From a virus, in IMG/VR virus record IMGVR_UViG_3300028800_000006, positions 1 to 64,000 of that record: a stretch of DNA of 64,000 bases. One strand, written 5' to 3'. The position numbers and the translations under genes were made by a program. Positions 8,360-50,657 of the stretch are shown piece after piece. Below the pieces are notes generated by a model that saw only the letters and a program-made list of their open reading frames with translations, made no database searches and was not told the origin of the DNA. Each line of letters starts with the position of its first letter. Within the stretch, counting starts at the first letter, position 1.

Positions 8360-9172
8360 GTGACCGAACAAGAAAGGCTCATCAAGCAGTGGATGCCCCT
8401 CGCTTACCTCGTGGCGCGGGACTACTCGCGCCACTGCATCGGAACCGCTGAAGCTGACGACATTCGATCGGCGGCGCTGGAGGGCCTGGTGCGTGCGGCG
8501 CAGTCGTTCGACGTTGGGCGCGGAGCGACCTTCGCCACGCACGCCAGGAACATGATCGGGTGGTCGATCTGTGGCTATCGGGCTGGCAGCCACATGCTGA
8601 TGGGCCGGGGCGCGATGACCCACGCGCGGAAGCTGGGCAAGGCGCCGCCGGCCGTCACCTCGACTTCTGCGATCGAGAACTTCGAGGAGCGTGTGGCTGC
8701 GGGTGGGGGCGATGCATTCGACGACGCTGCCCTGGCTGAACAGCGGCAGCAGCTTCGGGCAGCCATCCGGCAGCTGCCGCGCAGAACGGCCGATGCAGTC
8801 TCGATGTACTACTTTGAGGAGCTGACGTTCGCTCAGTTGGGGAAGCGGCTGAAGCTCACCCGGCAGCGGGCTCAGCAGATCGTCGAGGACGGCGTGACCC
8901 GAGTGGCAGAGCTTGTACAGCGCCAGCAGCCTGCAGAGCAGGAGGCAGCTCTGCCTATCAAGTGGCGCGTGCCCAACGGCCAACGGGCGGCCTTGGCTTG
9001 GGGGCCTGTCGACGCAAACGGCTTCTCCGTGCACTACCTCTGCAATGGCACGGGGAAGATCGGCATGCAGCGCAGCGTGAAAGGGGAGCGGCGCATCGAC
9101 GTGCGCGCCTGTGAGGCGTGTTCGGGCAAGGGGCACCGCAGGCTTGCCGAGCCGCTCGCCTCCGCTGTATAA
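8360..9172 (+). CDS. Sigma-70-family RNA polymerase sigma factor with C-terminal zinc hairpin
   Basis: 270 residues from GTG. Region 2 spans about 10-75: ADDIRSAALEGLVRAAQSFD and GATFATHARNMI are the core-binding and -10 elements. Region 4 is at about 135-190, with LPRRTADAVSMYYFEELTFA and LKLTRQRAQQIVEDG as the -35-binding HTH. The tail (about 215-262) has CNGTG and CEACSGKG, a DnaJ-like zinc motif not expected in sigma factors. It probably redirects host polymerase to phage promoters. A TAGAAT -10 lies 10 bases before the start, with a poor -35. Confidence 0.85.
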   Translation: MTEQERLIKQWMPLAYLVARDYSRHCIGTAEADDIRSAALEGLVRAAQSFDVGRGATFATHARNMIGWSICGYRAGSHMLMGRGAMTHARKLGKAPPAVTSTSAIENFEERVAAGGGDAFDDAALAEQRQQLRAAIRQLPRRTADAVSMYYFEELTFAQLGKRLKLTRQRAQQIVEDGVTRVAELVQRQQPAEQEAALPIKWRVPNGQRAALAWGPVDANGFSVHYLCNGTGKIGMQRSVKGERRIDVRACEACSGKGHRRLAEPLASAV

Positions 9173-10600: not shown

Positions 10601-11199
10601 GGAATACCCCATGTTTTGTGCGCCTGCGTGCTCAGCGCCCATCGACCATCACTGTTGCGTGCATCAAGCAACAGGTTCATCACGTGGCTGATGTTCGTGG
10701 CGCCTGTCGGATCTGTCAACGGCTGCAGGTAACGATGGAAGAACGTGGTCTCACGGTCGAGTTCATCGATCTCGCGCCATCCCCAGGAGGACGGAACGAC
10801 GAGCTTCAGTGTGTTACCTGTCCGGTGAGCGTAGCCTGGCGTTTTGGGCGAAACCGTTAACCACTCCACAGGAAGACCTGGAAGCGCCCTGATGCCGCTG
10901 GTTTCTACGTGTACGCGAAAGCGTGCACTATTCAAGCGGTCCACGAGTGCTGTCAGATCGTGATCTGATGGCTCGCCACCCGTGACACATACGATCCCTG
11001 TGGGGGCCAACTGCACGCACTGCGCGATGATCTCATCGGCGGTGCACGATCTAGTAGCTTTCCACGGCGCCTCATCGCACACAGCACGGATGTGACAGTC
11101 GCGCACAGAACATCCTGCAAGGCGCACGAACGTCATCGGATAGCCGACGAAGTGACCTTCACCCTGGAACGATCGAAAGATACGCGTGACTGGGTACAT
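10597..11199 (-). CDS. queE: QueE, 7-carboxy-7-deazaguanine synthase (radical SAM)
   Basis: 200 residues. It converts 6-carboxy-tetrahydropterin to 7-carboxy-7-deazaguanine (CDG). RIFRSFQGEGHFVGYPMTFV is the QueE signature, GGEPSDHD the SAM-binding GGEP motif, and ETSG and SPK follow as in the family. The cluster Cys are spaced CSVRDCHIRAVC (CX4CX5C), not the canonical CX3CX2C. The ATG overlaps the queC stop (TGATG). With QueC and DpdA it makes a 7-deazaguanine base for DNA modification; FolE and QueD are not seen and would come from the host. Confidence 0.85.
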   Translation of the reverse strand: MYPVTRIFRSFQGEGHFVGYPMTFVRLAGCSVRDCHIRAVCDEAPWKATRSCTADEIIAQCVQLAPTGIVCVTGGEPSDHDLTALVDRLNSARFRVHVETSGIRALPGLPVEWLTVSPKTPGYAHRTGNTLKLVVPSSWGWREIDELDRETTFFHRYLQPLTDPTGATNISHVMNLLLDARNSDGRWALSTQAHKTWGIP

Positions 11200-11879
11200 C
11201 ACACGTACTCCGTCGGGTCCAGCACACCAGCAGTCGTGAAGCCCTGCGAACGGATCTGGCAAGAGTCACAGCGCCCGCAAGCTCGTGTGCCGACTGGATC
11301 GTAGCAGGAGTGCGTCAGGCTGTAGTCCACGCCCAACCGAATGCCTTCGCGGATGATGTCGGCCTTTGTCATCGCGATCAGCGGTGCATGAATCTCCCAG
11401 AGCGTCCCACGCGCTCCGGCACGTGTTCCAACCGCAGCCATGGTCTCGAACGCGCGCAGGAACTCTGGACGGCAGTCAGGGTACCCGGAGTAGTCGACCG
11501 CGTTCATGCCTGCGACGATGTGGCGCGTTCCGAGCACCTCGGCCCACGCCAGGGCGAAACACAGAAACAGTGCATTTCGTGCCGGTACGTACGTGATCGG
11601 AATGTCGGCGGACATTGCCGTAGTGTCTCTGTCCTTCGGCACGTCAATGCTGTCCGTGAGGGCCGAGCCACCAATCCAGTTCAGGTCGATCGTGGCTACT
11701 CGATGTGCGGTCACACCAAGAGTCTTTGCAACATACGCTGCCGCCTCAAGCTCCACAGCGTGGCGCTGCCCGTATCGAAATGACAGTGCGTGGCAGTCGA
11801 GTCCTTGTGCAAGTGCCCACGCTAGTGCTGTGGTTGAGTCGACTCCGCCAGACAGAAGAACAACAGCTTTTTCTTTCAT
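11199..11879 (-). CDS. queC: QueC, 7-cyano-7-deazaguanine (preQ0) synthase
   Basis: 226 residues, normal length. SGGVDSTT (10-17) is the PP-loop that adenylates [21 protein letters not shown] and [17 protein letters not shown] are family hallmarks, and the C-terminal [16 protein letters not shown] binds zinc. It makes preQ0 from CDG using ammonia and ATP. One-base overlap with queE; 1 base downstream of the DpdA gene, so all three form one operon. Confidence 0.93.
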
Positions 11880-11880
11880 C

Positions 11881-12693
11881 TCACGTCTCCTTTACTTCTT
11901 GAAGCAGTTCACGCCGCCACTGGAGCGCCCAGTCAGGGCAGTTAGCGCAGTTCTTGTGCCCGGTGCGCCGACGATCGCCTGGCGTGTCGTGCCCCGGTAA
12001 GAGCACAGGGTTCTGCCTGGCCGTGTCGCTCCACGCCGTCGAGTCGGCGCTGTGCAAGACGGACATGCAGTTCCTCACCCCAGCCTTTTTGAATCCAAAA
12101 CCATGGAGGCGCAGCCCGTCGCTGGCAAGCGTCGTCATGATAGTGGTTGCCTCAGCAGTCGACTGCCGGCGACACACAGTGCCCACGCCTACGGTCGCCT
12201 CGTCGCGGAGCCGTACGCCAGCCTTTTCGTATAACTCCTGGCAGCGCCAGTAGTCTGTCAGCTTCCACCCCTGCAAGACAGGGATGACGCGATCACCGAG
12301 CAGCTTGCGTAGGCGCATGAAGTTGGCGACCGTGTTGCGCTGATGAGTCAGAACGGATTTTCCTGTTCCGGCGAAAACAACACCACGTGCCGCGCGTCCA
12401 CCAGCCAGCACGATCGGTTCGCACATCCAGTCTTGCGGCGCAGCCCACAACAGACGCTTGCCGTAGAAGGCGATGTATCTGGACACCTCATCTGCATAGG
12501 CTTCGGGGGAGATTGTCCACCGACCGTGCATCTGCAGTTCTGTGAACCCGCCAGAGTCGAGCGCGAAACAACCGGCAGCCGTTGGAAGAGTCGAGTAGCG
12601 CGCGAGGCGGCGGCGCGAGATGAACAGTGGCACATCAGCAAAGCGCGGGTCTGACAGCCAGCCCGGCTGGTGTGTTCCTAAGAAGAAGCGCAT
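11881..12693 (-). CDS. DpdA-like DNA deazapurine transglycosylase
   Basis: 270 residues. Phage DpdA proteins are TGT relatives that swap guanine in DNA for a 7-deazaguanine. Visible TGT-like features are [11 protein letters not shown] (Asp46, catalytic-type Asp), [10 protein letters not shown] (second Asp region), [21 protein letters not shown], and a C-terminal zinc-like [10 protein letters not shown]. Shorter than bacterial TGT. Its place directly upstream of queC and queE strongly supports insertion of preQ0 or a derivative into phage DNA, protecting against restriction. The exact base cannot be read from sequence. Confidence 0.8.
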
Positions 12694-21735: not shown

Positions 21736-22386
21736 ATGGTAGCCGTCATTGACTTGACCGGTCATAGGTACGGGCGCCTGACTGTGCTAGAGCGCGCTGG
21801 CTCTATTCGGAATAAAGCACGCTGGCGCTGCGTGTGCGCTTGCGGGAAGACTGTTCTTTGCGACAGCAACAGCTTGCGCGAGAAGCACACCACATCCTGC
21901 GGCTGTCGCAGTCGTGAATCGGCACGTGAGCGCCTGCGATCTGCAATGACTCGTCATGGTGAGAACGCTGGAGGAGTACGAACACACGAGTACAAGACAT
22001 GGTGTCGAATGATTGCGCGCTGTGAAGACAAGGAGCGAAAACACTACGGCGCAAAGGGAATCGCTGTTCATCCTGCGTGGCGGTCAGACTTTCTTTGCTT
22101 CCTTGCCTATATCGGGCGTGCGCCGAGCAAGCACCACACGATCGACCGGATTGAAAACGCCAAGGGATACGAGCCCGGAAACGTTCGCTGGGCTACACAG
22201 AAGGAGCAGGGGAGAAACAAAACAAACAACCATCTGCTTACTGTCGGTGGAGAGACCGCGCCGCTCGTCGTTTGGGCTGAGCGTACAGGGCTGACGTTGG
22301 ATGCACTCAGCCACAGACTGCGGCTTGGCTGGTCTCCATTGCGGGCTGTTACAACGCCACGGAGGAGCTATGTTCGACGCAAATGA
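21736..22386 (+). CDS. HNH endonuclease (homing type) upstream of the polymerase
   Basis: 216 residues. The N-terminal phage HNH-associated zinc domain has YGRLTVLERAGSIRN, CVCACG and SCGCRSRE. The nuclease core runs about 85-160: YKTWCRMIARCEDKERKHYG and HHTIDRIENAKGYEPGNVRW, where the Asp-Arg-Ile and Asn-Val-Arg-Trp segments form the HNH motif. A C-terminal NUMOD-like helix set follows. Its end overlaps the polymerase start by 17 bases. Likely selfish, inserted between exonuclease and polymerase. Confidence 0.85.
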   Translation: MVAVIDLTGHRYGRLTVLERAGSIRNKARWRCVCACGKTVLCDSNSLREKHTTSCGCRSRESARERLRSAMTRHGENAGGVRTHEYKTWCRMIARCEDKERKHYGAKGIAVHPAWRSDFLCFLAYIGRAPSKHHTIDRIENAKGYEPGNVRWATQKEQGRNKTNNHLLTVGGETAPLVVWAERTGLTLDALSHRLRLGWSPLRAVTTPRRSYVRRK

Positions 22387-24814
22387 TCCTCCTGGTCCGC
22401 AGCATGCGTGGGCGATGGCGGCGGGTGCGCAGTGCGAGCGCTGTGAACTTAGGAATTCAGGCCGTGGCCCTGTTCCACCGACGCTCCCACCGGGTGGCTA
22501 CGATCTGATCGTCATCGCAGAAGCGCCAGGGCACAACGAAGTGGCTGAGGGACGAACACTTGTGGGTGCGTCAGGAAAAGAAATACGGACTGCACTGCAG
22601 TCGGCAGGAGCGGATTTGACCCGAGTTGGCTTCACGAATAGTGCCCTCTGCATGCCTGATGTTGATATGAAGAAGCACATCCAGAAGTGCCGGCGGGCGA
22701 AGGTCCCGAATGTGATCGAGTGCTGCCGCCCGCGGCTCCGCGCCGAGCTGTCCCGGGCCAAGTTCGCGATCTTGATGGGCAGCGCTTCGATGGCTGGCGT
22801 CGAGATCCACGGCTCGGTCATGGAGATGCGCGGCATGCCGGCGCAGATTCCGAACGGCCCCCGAGCTGTGCCGATCACCCACGCGGCCTACGTTCTCCGC
22901 GAGGAGGGCCGGCGCATGCGGCCGATCTTCCACGCTGACGTGAAGAAGGCTGTGCGGATCAGCCGAGGCGGAGATACGTGGCGAGATCCGGCGTACTTTA
23001 TCCCGACGACGGCGGATCAGGTCGTCAACTTCTTGCGGGCCCATCCGGGCCGGCTGGCAGTTGACGTCGAGACGGACGGGAAGGACCCCTGGACGTGCAA
23101 CCTGCGCCGCATTGGCATCGGCAACGCCAGCGAGGTGATGATCTACTCGCCGCTGTCGGTGAAGGGGCACTGGATGCTACCGCCGCACGAGATACAAGCG
23201 CAGAGCCGGGCCATCGCTGCTCACTTCCAGCAGGCTCCGCGGCTCGATCTGCACAACGGCATCGCGTACGACTCGATCGTGCTGTGGCGGCACGGGATGC
23301 CTTTGGTGGACGCGAAGGTGTTCGACACGCTGGTGGCGCACCAGATCGGCATCACGTCCGAGCTGCCGCACAAGCTCGACTTCCTGGGCTCGATGTACAC
23401 CGACGTCCGCTACTGGAAGAAGGACGTGAAGCACAGCGAGGTGAAGGACGACGCCACCCTCGACAAGTACCTGTCGTTCGACATTGGAGTCACCTGGACG
23501 TCGGCGCCGTACGTCGAGCAGAACTTGAGGGGGGCCGCACAGGAGCACATCTACGCCATCGATTCCGAGCTGTTCCGCATCGGGCGCTCGATGTCAGCAC
23601 TTGGTGTGGGGGTTGATCGGGAGAAGCAGCTGGCGTTCGCGACGGAGTATCAGAAGCGCTCAAACGAGCTGCTGCTGGAGTTCCAGACGATTGCTGGCAC
23701 CGACGTGAACCCGAACTCGGTGCCTCAGATGAAGAAGCTGCTCTACGAGACGCTCGGGCTGCCGATCCTCGAAGAGCACATGACGGAGTCCGGAGAGCCG
23801 TCCACCGCAGAGCCCGTGCTGCTGGAGCTGCTCGGGATGGGGCTCGACCCTCGGGGGGAGAAGATCATCCACGCCTTGCTGGGTGTGCGCGAGGCGGAGA
23901 AGCTGCTCGGCACGTACACGGGGCACGTGGAGGACGGCAAGATCGTGGGCGGCCCGCTCATCCATGCCGACGGACGCGTGCGCACGACGTGGCGGCCGGG
24001 GAAGACGTCGGGCCGGTGGGGCAGCTCGGACCCGCTCAACATGCAGAACGTGCCCAAGAAGCTGCGGGCGATGTTCGTGCCGGCGCCGGGCAACATCTTC
24101 GTCGCGGCTGACATGAGCGCGGTCGAGCTTCGGATGATCGCGCTCCTGGCCGGAGACGAGCAGCTCATCGAGGCGTTCAAGGCGTTCGACGAGAAGCGCG
24201 GCCCAGACGTGCACATCTTCAACGCGTGTGGCCTATTCCGCTGCCGGCCCGAGGACGTCACCGACGAGATCCGGAACTTCGTCAAGCGGTTCGTCTACGC
24301 GCTCAACTACGACGCGCAGCCACCCACTATCTACCAGACGCTGTCGTTGCTGCGCGACGACAAGCTGCGCCCGTTGTTCCCGCACCTGACGCTGCCCGAG
24401 GTCGAGCGGACCTACAACGCGTGGTGGAAGCTGCACCCGTCGATTCCGGACTGGAAGAAGCGGCTCATCCAGAGCTGGCGCGCCCGAGGCTACATCGCGA
24501 CGGAGTACCACAAGCGCAAGCGGTTCTTCATCGGCGGCGAGAGCGCGACTGAAATGGGGAACCTGCCCATCCAGGGGGCCTCGGCCGATCTGCAGAATGA
24601 CGCCATCCGGGCCGTGGTCTCGATGTACCCGTTCAACTTTGAGAAGCGCCGCGGGCTCAGCATCAACGGCCACGATCAGATCGTCGTGGAGTGTGGGGAA
24701 GATGAGGCGGAGGACGTGAAGCGTATCATCCAGGTGGCCATGCAGAAGCGGATAGGGGCGATGCTATTTCCCGCGGAACCGAAAGCTGCGAAGGACTGGA
24801 AAAGCGCGAGTTGA
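22370..24814 (+). CDS. Family A DNA polymerase with N-terminal uracil-DNA-glycosylase-like domain
   Basis: 814 residues from ATG 22370 (GGAGGAG 4-5 bases upstream). Residues about 15-190 resemble family 4/5 UDG: CERC cluster Cys, VIAEAPGHNEVAEGRTLVGA (motif A), THAAYVLRE (altered motif B). About 200-380 is the 3'-5' exonuclease (LAVDVETDG, LHNGIAYDSIVLW, YLSFDIGVTW). The Pol A core has FVAADMSAVELRMIALLAGD (motif A), RNFVKRFVYALNYDA (motif B, with the usual YG as Tyr-Asp), and NGHDQIVVEC (motif C, HDQ instead of HDE). Replicative polymerase. The UDG-pol fusion recalls the SPO1 lineage. Flanked on both sides by HNH genes. Confidence 0.92.
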   Translation: MFDANDPPGPQHAWAMAAGAQCERCELRNSGRGPVPPTLPPGGYDLIVIAEAPGHNEVAEGRTLVGASGKEIRTALQSAGADLTRVGFTNSALCMPDVDMKKHIQKCRRAKVPNVIECCRPRLRAELSRAKFAILMGSASMAGVEIHGSVMEMRGMPAQIPNGPRAVPITHAAYVLREEGRRMRPIFHADVKKAVRISRGGDTWRDPAYFIPTTADQVVNFLRAHPGRLAVDVETDGKDPWTCNLRRIGIGNASEVMIYSPLSVKGHWMLPPHEIQAQSRAIAAHFQQAPRLDLHNGIAYDSIVLWRHGMPLVDAKVFDTLVAHQIGITSELPHKLDFLGSMYTDVRYWKKDVKHSEVKDDATLDKYLSFDIGVTWTSAPYVEQNLRGAAQEHIYAIDSELFRIGRSMSALGVGVDREKQLAFATEYQKRSNELLLEFQTIAGTDVNPNSVPQMKKLLYETLGLPILEEHMTESGEPSTAEPVLLELLGMGLDPRGEKIIHALLGVREAEKLLGTYTGHVEDGKIVGGPLIHADGRVRTTWRPGKTSGRWGSSDPLNMQNVPKKLRAMFVPAPGNIFVAADMSAVELRMIALLAGDEQLIEAFKAFDEKRGPDVHIFNACGLFRCRPEDVTDEIRNFVKRFVYALNYDAQPPTIYQTLSLLRDDKLRPLFPHLTLPEVERTYNAWWKLHPSIPDWKKRLIQSWRARGYIATEYHKRKRFFIGGESATEMGNLPIQGASADLQNDAIRAVVSMYPFNFEKRRGLSINGHDQIVVECGEDEAEDVKRIIQVAMQKRIGAMLFPAEPKAAKDWKSAS

Positions 24815-31165: not shown

Positions 31166-31421
31166 AGATCGTCTACGTGGCGGGCCGGTTCAACGCGGAC
31201 ACGCACTGGGAGGTCGAGCAGAACGTGCGGCGGGCGGAGGCGCTTGCGGTGGAGGTCGCGCGGCTCGGCGCTCATCCTGGTGCCGGGCTGGGGAAGGGTC
31301 GAAGGGCACGGCGGCGGAGCGTGAAGAAGCGTTCCGGAAGCACATTCCACAGTTTCACGATCTGCGGTCGCTTCAGGACTGGCTGGATCGTGGAGCACCA
31401 ACCTACAAGGAGGATGTCTGA
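31162..31421 (+). pseudogene. Broken DUF4406 / nucleoside deoxyribosyltransferase-like gene
   Basis: A TTG overlaps the tmk stop and opens KIVYVAGRFNADTHWEVEQN, then VRRAEALAVEVARLGAHP, the classic N-terminus of DUF4406-type Rossmann proteins. The frame is then lost. LILVPGW appears in a second frame, and SKGTAAEREEAFRKHIPQFH through DWLDRGAPTYKEDV in a third frame, whose TGA overlaps the thyX ATG. The middle of the family is missing, so an internal deletion plus one more indel disrupted an intact gene. Sequencing or assembly error is the alternative. The intact protein would have acted in nucleotide salvage. Confidence 0.65.
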
Positions 31422-32185
31422 TGCTGCTGCGCATTCCAGTTCTGGATCACGGCTATCTCGAAGCCATCGAGTCATGGGGGTCGGACGAGCGGATCGTCGA
31501 GGCCGCTCGGATGAGCACCGGCAAGGGCTTCCTTCGTTGGGATGAGGGCCCGTGTCCCGCTTGTGGCACCATGGACGAACAGGGGCCCGGCTGTCATGCG
31601 TGCGAGGGTAAGGGCAGCGTTCGCGGCGACGTCCACCTGCTTCGTCGCCTTTGGACGATGAAGCACGCCACCCCGTTCGAAATGGCTGGCCTGGTCATCG
31701 AGGTCCAGGCGCCGATCTTCGTCTTCCGCGAATGGCATCGCCACCGGACACAGTCCTACAACGAGATGTCAGCGCGCTACATGCCATTGCCCAACGTGAA
31801 CTACATCCCGTCTGTCGCGCGTCTGCTGATCAACAGCAAGACGAACAAGCAGGCAGGGACAGTGGCGGGCGCAGAGGAACTGACCGAAGGTGTCGCGTTT
31901 ATCTTTCAGGAGTCGCTTCGACACATCTACGCCGAGGCTGAGACGCTATATCAGCAAGCTCTGCGAGCTGGAATCCCGAAGGAGTTGGCCCGCATTCACC
32001 TTCCGGTCGGCCGCTACAGCCGCATGCGTGCGAGCGCGAATCTCAGAAATTGGCTGGCGTTCCTGACCCTGCGGATGGACCAGGCGGCGCAGTGGGAGAT
32101 CCGTCAGTACGCGAACGCTGTGGGTGAAATCATCGCCGAGCGGTTCCCTCGGACCTGGGCGCTGTTCACGGAGGGACGAAAGTGA
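31421..32185 (+). CDS. thyX: ThyX, flavin-dependent thymidylate synthase with zinc insertion
   Basis: 254 residues. Makes dTMP from dUMP using FAD and methylene-THF. The signature WHRHRTQSYNEMSARY matches the ThyX RHR-x5-S-x-R motif; HATPFEM, LPVGRYSRMRASANLRNW and FPRTW are also conserved. Unusually, residues about 40-65 hold CPACGTMDEQGPGCHACEGK, a CxxC...CxxCxGKG zinc-type hairpin inserted between the N-terminal helix and LLRRLWTMKH. The insertion resembles ones in the sigma factor and recombinase here. Confidence 0.93.
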   Translation: MLLRIPVLDHGYLEAIESWGSDERIVEAARMSTGKGFLRWDEGPCPACGTMDEQGPGCHACEGKGSVRGDVHLLRRLWTMKHATPFEMAGLVIEVQAPIFVFREWHRHRTQSYNEMSARYMPLPNVNYIPSVARLLINSKTNKQAGTVAGAEELTEGVAFIFQESLRHIYAEAETLYQQALRAGIPKELARIHLPVGRYSRMRASANLRNWLAFLTLRMDQAAQWEIRQYANAVGEIIAERFPRTWALFTEGRK

Positions 32186-49239: not shown

Positions 49240-49971
49240 TTAGGTGTCCTCATCAAACGCGCGGTTCACCTTGGCCCGCGCTTCGTCGGTGGTGTGCATG
49301 TACCCGAACGTCGTCGCCAGCGCTGCGTGACCGACGCGCTCTTGAATGGCTGGCGGCGGCGTCCCTTTGTTCAGCATGTGCGTGACCGCGCTGTGCCGCA
49401 GGATGTGCGGGAAGTGGAACTCGGAGGGGATGCCAGCGGCTGTGAACACCGCGACCACGAGGTGCCGAACCTCGTGTCGGGTCATCCCCCAGCGCTTCCC
49501 GCTCGCGTGGCAGTGAGGGCAGGGGGCCAGCCGAGACTCACTGGCGCCGCCCCGTTTCCGCTTCTTGACGGTGAGCGCTCCCTTGCCGGCACAGGGGTAG
49601 CAGTCGCCAGGTCGCGCCGATGGGAACACGTAGCCGTGCTGTGCAGCCTCGACGAACGTGCGCTTCGGCAGCCAGGCGCGGAGGGCCTCGCGGCAGGCGT
49701 TCGCGAGCGGCTGTGGTTCAGGTTCGAGGCCGCCTTTCAAATGGGTCAACATCACGGTGCCGTTGTGCAGATCCACGTCGGTGATGCGTGCACAGCCGGG
49801 CTCGCTGGCGCGACTGCCGTTTGTGAAGAGCCATTCGATCATCGCGTGCGCGAGGGGGCTGTGGGCGCGAGCGGCAGCGCGGATCTTCTGCAGATCGCCA
49901 GCACCGAGCACAGCGCGCTTTTTGCGGACCTTTTGGGGTTTGCGGGTCATCCGCGGCTCAGGCGCTGCCAC
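49240..49971 (-). CDS. Tyrosine recombinase with zinc-hairpin insertion
   Basis: 243 residues. The catalytic domain has FTNGSRASEPGCARITDVDL (Arg-I), LTHLKGGL (Lys), PHILRHSAVTHMLNKGTPPP (His-x-x-Arg), VGHAALATTFGYMHTT (His, nucleophile Tyr). The N-terminal SAM-like domain is nearly absent. CYPCAGKGALTV and CPHCHASGKRWG insert a CxxCxGxG...CxxC zinc hairpin between the Lys and HxxR motifs. Could integrate the phage, resolve genome multimers or move a cassette. No att site is identifiable. ATG at 49950 is an alternative start. Confidence 0.85.
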   Translation of the reverse strand: MAAPEPRMTRKPQKVRKKRAVLGAGDLQKIRAAARAHSPLAHAMIEWLFTNGSRASEPGCARITDVDLHNGTVMLTHLKGGLEPEPQPLANACREALRAWLPKRTFVEAAQHGYVFPSARPGDCYPCAGKGALTVKKRKRGGASESRLAPCPHCHASGKRWGMTRHEVRHLVVAVFTAAGIPSEFHFPHILRHSAVTHMLNKGTPPPAIQERVGHAALATTFGYMHTTDEARAKVNRAFDEDT

Positions 49972-50657
49972 TGGTTTCTGCCCTTGGGGGTGTCCGCAAA
50001 GCGTTGCTTCCGCAGCACGGACAGATAGTGCGAAACGGAGCGGCGCGCGACGCCAGCCTTGTCAGCAATCTGCGCAAACGGCTGCGGTGCATCTGTGAGC
50101 GCATCATACACACGCTGGATGTCCCCCATGCCCCTCGGTCTACGCGGAGCACGCGCGGGCTTAGCCGGTGCTTGTCCATCTTGCGTCTGCACGATCGGCT
50201 GTGCTTTGCCTGTCACGATCTCCGTGAGTGCACGGTGCAAGCGTGCTAGTTGCGTCTGTGAGGTGTGCAATTCCGCCCGTGCTGCCTCTACCCGCCGCTG
50301 AGCCAGCAGGTGGCGCGCTTCTGCTTCCACGACAGCACGCGCCGCGAGCATTAGGGGTGCTTCTTGGGAAGTGGGCTCAGGCAGCGGCTCGGGCAACGGC
50401 TCAGGCAGCGGGGTAGCGGCCTCCACTGCCGCCACTTCAGCAGAACTCAAACGTGCACCCAAGCGGCTGAAAACAGCCTCGCGGGCAGCGTGTTCACGCT
50501 CACCGCCGAATCGAACAGTAGCGCCGCACGCCCCACACGTCACTGTGATTGGTCCATCAGGGGCGGTCCAGGATGGGCGCTCATCAGCCTCTGCGTGTAG
50601 ACACGGAGAAGATGTGGTTTGGGTGCCGGAGACTCCTGCAAATAGATTATCGTTCAT
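49947..50657 (-). CDS. Zinc-finger protein with C-terminal winged helix
   Basis: 236 residues. ITVTCGACGATVRFGG with an upstream CLH forms a zinc ribbon. A Pro-Glu-Pro-Leu repeat (PLPEPLPEPLPEP) and a long coiled coil (about 108-150) follow. The C-terminal 60 residues are a winged helix (GDIQRVYDALTDAPQPFAQI, AGVARRSVSHYLSVLRKQRF). Likely a phage transcription regulator. Overlaps the recombinase start by 25 bases. Confidence 0.7.
   Translation of the reverse strand: MNDNLFAGVSGTQTTSSPCLHAEADERPSWTAPDGPITVTCGACGATVRFGGEREHAAREAVFSRLGARLSSAEVAAVEAATPLPEPLPEPLPEPTSQEAPLMLAARAVVEAEARHLLAQRRVEAARAELHTSQTQLARLHRALTEIVTGKAQPIVQTQDGQAPAKPARAPRRPRGMGDIQRVYDALTDAPQPFAQIADKAGVARRSVSHYLSVLRKQRFADTPKGRNQWQRLSRG

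Follow-up and report, generated by a model that had tools for sequence, protein, structure and literature searches.

Putative zinc hairpins on three proteins of an environmental phage and their turnover in a loop of its thymidylate synthase ThyX

Three proteins encoded by one phage, a sigma factor, a flavin-dependent thymidylate synthase (ThyX) and a tyrosine recombinase, each have a hairpin of the paired CxxC type that includes a CxGxG motif, which raises the question of whether the hairpins derive from one mobile module, reflect a shared binding partner or were acquired separately. The DNA analyzed, referred to as the window, comprises 64,000 nucleotides (positions 1 to 64,000) of the IMG/VR virus record IMGVR_UViG_3300028800_000006, a tailed-phage type genome of 102,927 bp with a GC content of 64%. 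Translation and a motif scan placed the CxxCxGxG-type motifs, already noticed in a preliminary description, in frame within real genes. The arrangement [CH]xxC...CxxC with one CxxCxGxG was present in 3 of the 147 called genes of the 103-kb phage, while the average over 300 residue shuffles was 0.017 such genes and no shuffle gave more than 1. The number of hairpins is not clearly unusual in comparison with other phages, because 50 other phage records (about 3.1 Mb) contained 15 matches to the DnaJ cysteine-rich domain (PF00684) in 14 records at the looser threshold of E ≤ 0.01; this phage had two, at E ≤ 0.001, against roughly 0.5 expected. As judged by profile scores, the label "DnaJ-type" denotes a resemblance of motif only, since the sigma factor (16.3 bits) and the recombinase (20.5 bits) are below the PF00684 cut-off of 32.7 and ThyX has no match. 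The CxxCxGxG spacing is that of the DnaJ/Hsp40 domain, but the latter has four repeats and two zincs, whereas each window hairpin has two half-motifs, four ligands and one predicted metal site, and no match to the J domain (PF00226) was found in any of the three proteins. The ligand patterns make zinc binding most likely. Each hairpin would be a short, self-folding structure on a surface loop or tail, closed by a single tetrahedral metal site. The metal would most likely be zinc, with four Cys, or three Cys and one His, as its ligands.

The sigma-70-type factor (270 aa; 8360-9172, +) possesses regions 2 and 4, both above the Pfam cut-off (PF04542, Sigma70_r2, 4.8e-6; PF04545, Sigma70_r4, 2.9e-9). 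Its hairpin (9032-9133, +; translation, motif scan and a partial PF00684 match at residues 228-259) has the sequence H225-x-x-C228-N-G-T-G ... C251-x-x-C254-S-G-K-G. The first ligand is a His, hence the site is HCCC. Region 4 ends at residue 182 and the hairpin is a C-terminal tail beyond it; therefore, the term "insertion", applied to all three proteins in the preliminary description, is correct for ThyX and the recombinase and must be replaced by "C-terminal extension" for the sigma factor. The protein resembles WhiG, FliA and RpoS, with matches that span residues 3-189 only. Close relatives were absent from the viral contigs, there was no INPHARED match at E 1e-5 and none in 50 ThyX-bearing phages, and matches up to E 5 covered at most 38% of the protein, in its N-terminal (region 2) part. 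The phage Loki gp45, a lambda-Q-like protein, has two CXXCXGXG motifs and a zinc hairpin (PMC5313236). Lambda-Q-type antiterminators (e.g., Loki gp45; PDB 4mo1) are phage transcription factors that bear a zinc hairpin, as is predicted for the window protein. The window protein differs from them in being of the sigma-70 type, with both region 2 and region 4; no Q-family domain had a score in it, and the hairpin alone weakly matched the Q-like phrog_6060 (E 0.068). By likeness to those phage regulators, the sigma hairpin most likely touches RNA polymerase or DNA.

The tyrosine recombinase (243 aa; 49240-49971, -) consists of a catalytic domain (Phage_integrase, PF00589, 5e-23; alignment with XerD) preceded by only about 25 residues, without an N-terminal core-binding domain. 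The catalytic R, K, HxxR, H and Y were located by sequence and alignment (GSRASE, HLKGG, HILRH, GH and Y). The hairpin, C124xxC127xGxG...C151xxC154 (about residues 122-160; 49492-49608, -), is inserted between "YVFPS" and "MTRHEV", in the loop that connects FPS to the next helix, where XerD has a short loop in the alignment. It probably lengthens a loop that faces DNA or another protomer. Integron integrases have an extra motif located before the FxF strand. An analogy of the insert with that motif was considered and rejected because the insert is found after this strand. Close relatives of the recombinase were absent from the viral contigs, and the INPHARED matches were 25-35% identical; the two that were aligned (IntI and Efs) had no hairpin. 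A DNA pattern search for hairpin-bearing recombinases returned three unrelated proteins, with a pattern that demands CP in the first cysteine pair and would miss the CY of the window protein. A 236-aa frame (49947-50657, -) overlaps the recombinase start by 25 bases; its product has a CxxC pair reminiscent of a zinc ribbon and weakly matches an HTH at the C-terminal end. The frame is possibly coupled translationally to this recombinase, which lacks a core-binding domain of its own.

ThyX (254 aa; 31421-32185, +) was identified by a Thy1 match (PF02511, 1.1e-41; 143.2 bits against a cut-off of 24.8). The RHRxxSxxxxSxR motif is intact (RHRTQSYNEMSAR) and H82 aligns with H53 of the Thermotoga maritima enzyme and is invariant in 64 sequences. 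An AlphaFold2 model built from these 64 sequences (pLDDT 90.6, pTM 0.86) had T. maritima ThyX as its best PDB matches (3g4a, Foldseek E 2e-20, target-normalized TM 0.90), so that the predicted structure confirmed the ThyX fold. The Cys4 insert, C45xxC48...C58xxC61xGxG (residues 41-69; 31541-31627, +), occupies the alpha1-alpha2 loop, i.e., the acceptor site would be the loop between the first two core helices. In the alignment it takes the place of approximately residues 35-40 of T. maritima ThyX, and its end lies 13 residues, or one helix, ahead of the active-site His. The solved structures include H53 mutants with FAD, dUMP and folate, and therefore the helix adjacent to the insert can be placed at the active site. 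Model confidence is lowest in the insert (pLDDT of its successive blocks 85, 71 for residues 51-60, and 86), and two short strands (43-44 and 66-67) are predicted to close its base. The known ThyX/FDTS structures (T. maritima TM0449 and Thermus thermophilus Thy1, 6j61) share the core fold, the catalytic motif and the active-site His with the window enzyme, but have only a few residues at the position of the Cys4 insert. The preliminary view that the hairpins are not normal for their families was supported in this comparison, as it was by the end of the WhiG, FliA and RpoS matches at residue 189 of the sigma factor. The loop accommodates other insertions as well: in the ThyX of the cultured Microbacterium phage A3Wally (L223), the alpha1-alpha2 loop holds an acidic insert of comparable length that contains no Cys.

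The window's ThyX type occurs mainly in viruses, since 84,980 species genomes yielded only 13 relatives, of which nine reached at least 47% identity. The relatives compared were these and the best 80 of each of two viral-contig scans, a sample biased towards the window's ThyX; subtraction of duplicates and of four distant genomic ThyX, and addition of four overlooked by the motif search, left 98 sequences. All share ...ARMSTGKGFxGW, the loop and DEKLLxYL..., so the insertion site is fixed. The loop was 2 aa long in 19 sequences, 7-9 aa in 21 and 18-61 aa in 58. At least three potential Cys/His ligands were present in 56 of the 58 long inserts, the exceptions (L030 and L054) having no Cys. Cys accounted for 10.8% of the residues of the first 40 long inserts versus 0.46% in the cores, and His for 3.9% versus 2.7%. 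Assigned by simple patterns, the ligands of the 56 inserts followed at least four layouts: CxxC..CxxC with CxGxG (15), other C2..C2 (10), CxxC..C..H (12) and H..C..CxC (7), with 12 others. Judging from these layouts, the inserts conserve a capacity to bind metal rather than a sequence. The 7-9 aa loops retain the G...PG flanks of the inserts ("GTxxxPG") and look like emptied insert sites, i.e., what a loss would leave behind. A second insertion, within the catalytic motif region, was observed in the ThyX of L248 (1501-2376; FREWRTHRTCTQTEEEMFWDDAYNEMSAR).

On a tree built from the ThyX cores only, the zinc state required at least 24 changes, a number obtained by parsimony although the tree is uncertain, many of its forks being poorly supported; 8 changes were forced by well-supported branches. 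The Cys hairpins were gained or lost many times within one environmental phage clade. The state was somewhat clustered (24 changes versus 31.6 when shuffled, with 1 of 500 shuffles as low) and the 2-aa class was clustered (8 versus 17.6), whereas the 7-9 aa class was not (20 versus 19.4), as expected if loss recurs. Insert identity stayed at about 30% over the range of 50-80% core identity, and only the closest pairs have an insert in common; the median was 31% at 50-60% and 29% at 70-75% core identity, compared to 26% for shuffled inserts. Closely related cores can differ completely at this loop. The pair L033/L015 (core 87.9% identical) has a 9-aa loop in one member and a Cys-rich loop of 30 aa in the other, L011/L227 (81.9%) has loops of 7 and 56 aa, and L006/L248 (84.7%) has unrelated inserts, with about 80% DNA identity on both sides and an abrupt boundary. 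Because cores that are 82-88% identical carry different inserts or none, the insert is probably dispensable for catalysis. Such natural pairs of near-identical cores amount to a ready-made experiment on how a small domain originates, becomes fixed and gains a function. The Cys hairpin was absent from the solved ThyX structures and from ten cultured or database phage ThyX, which agrees with a lineage-specific insertion. For ThyX, this aspect goes further than the preliminary description proposed. The opposite case named there, a widespread and ancestral insertion, applies in one respect, as the hairpins are widespread in one phage clade; they are not ancestral to the enzyme and are not stable.

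Taken together, the sequence comparisons identify the alpha1-alpha2 loop of ThyX as a turnover hotspot for putative zinc-stapled mini-domains. The account that we favor, with some confidence, is that the phage carries three separately acquired mini-domains with an accessory role, the ThyX loop being a hotspot of repeated gain, loss and exchange of zinc modules. In the environmental clade of this phage, zinc mini-domains of varied size and ligand spacing would have been gained, lost and exchanged repeatedly while the ThyX core was conserved. The ThyX insert would most likely be an accessory surface element beside the active-site helix that contacts a fast-changing partner or tunes the stability of the loop. 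A conserved enzyme of nucleotide synthesis would then have had one loop near its active site repeatedly replaced by unrelated Cys/His-rich, probably zinc-binding folds. No description of zinc inserts in ThyX turned up in the literature searched, although this does not prove that they are new.

An interaction may not be needed at all. The loop could simply tolerate insertions of which only the metal-stapled ones fold, so that the insert would be structural filler. This is possible, if not the likely explanation: loop length differs among ThyX enzymes in general (as in A3Wally), the short loops of close relatives suggest dispensability, and two long inserts are Cys-free. However, 56 of the 58 long inserts retain at least three potential ligands despite total turnover of sequence, and the insertions keep returning to a single site instead of being distributed among all loops, a pattern suggestive of selection for a structured element. 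Another, rather unlikely, explanation is that the loop is hypervariable and its zinc mini-domains are swapped by recombination under putative diversifying selection, with the insert facing a host factor (an inhibitor or a defence protein) or a host-specific partner. The wholesale replacement of inserts between cores that are 82-88% identical and the abrupt boundary between the flanks of L006 and L248 are the observations in its favor. If true, the insert would be a type of variable module so far undescribed in metabolic enzymes of phages. It is still more doubtful that the insert is an ancient possession of this clade of phage ThyX, passed on vertically with no change other than loss in some lineages. 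The clustering of the zinc state on the tree would fit, as would the frame "EPGPCPxC...CxxCxGKGxxxG" common to the window ThyX, L044, L298, L017, L270 and L240. On the other hand, insert similarity is decoupled from core similarity, and even close relatives are unlike in the spacing of the ligands and in sequence: L006 and L248 have homologous cores and apparently non-homologous inserts, which points against vertical inheritance.

The remaining explanation, put forward in the preliminary description, that one mobile hairpin module spread within the genome onto three proteins or that these dock on a shared partner, is highly improbable and, as a recent spread, appears largely refuted: the presence of three hairpins in one genome versus 0.017 by shuffling speaks for it, but their mutual similarity was ordinary when they were ranked against a set of 174 further hairpins and ThyX inserts from phages (39th-94th of 177, below many hairpins of unrelated phages), no shared module was found at the DNA level, where likeness was limited to short stretches, the protein contexts differ (C-terminal tail in the sigma factor, alpha1-alpha2 loop in ThyX, catalytic-domain loop in the recombinase), and hairpins are common in phage proteins generally. 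The three window hairpins show no kinship to one another.

Paired Cys hairpins are very common in viral proteins. The pattern CPxCxGxG...CxxCxGxG occurred at least 120 times in the viral contigs, and all 120 listed occurrences were within an open frame. Pfam searches with selected proteins identified a GroES/Cpn10 with CPGCGGTG...CAECSGTG inside the chaperonin domain (L126:857-1324; PF00166, 9.1e-10), and DnaJ-type hairpins in an HHH/ERCC4-like nuclease (L087:760-1812, -; ERCC4 itself below the cut-off), a family A polymerase (L179:4317-6542, -), a possible terminase small subunit (L120:11505-12227, -; weak match) and a Mu F-like protein with a Hint/intein region (L124:3878-7012, -). A dCMP deaminase (L095:1168-1893; same phage as L038) has the hairpin inserted before its HAE motif. 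This family was considered as a second case of ThyX-like turnover and rejected; the other readable deaminases of the set had no hairpin, and in the single carrier it is in a loop that is already variable. "DnaJ domain" labels on phage enzymes would denote a recurrent zinc hairpin with no chaperone link. HMO-2011-type marine phages have a partial DnaJ central domain (CXXCXGXG insert) in DNA polymerase A (PMC9038755). The likeness consists in two CXXCXGXG motifs within an unrelated phage enzyme of DNA metabolism (PMC9038755), but that insert, located between the exonuclease and polymerase domains, is conserved across the phage group, whereas the ThyX insert is variable. The DNA polymerases also differ. 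In place of a DnaJ-PolA, the window has a uracil-DNA-glycosylase domain followed by a family A DNA polymerase in a single frame of 837 aa (22301-24814, +), with no PF00684 match.

Besides ThyX and this UDG-PolA fusion, the phage genes include a thymidylate kinase, SNF2-type and PIF1/AAA helicases, QueC and DpdA. Nothing closely related to the first 25 kb of the window was present in the INPHARED phage collection. QueC (11199-11879, -; PF06508, 4.2e-72) adjoins DpdA (11881-12693, -; PF23859, 2.3e-66) and the phage probably modifies its own DNA with a 7-deazaguanine.
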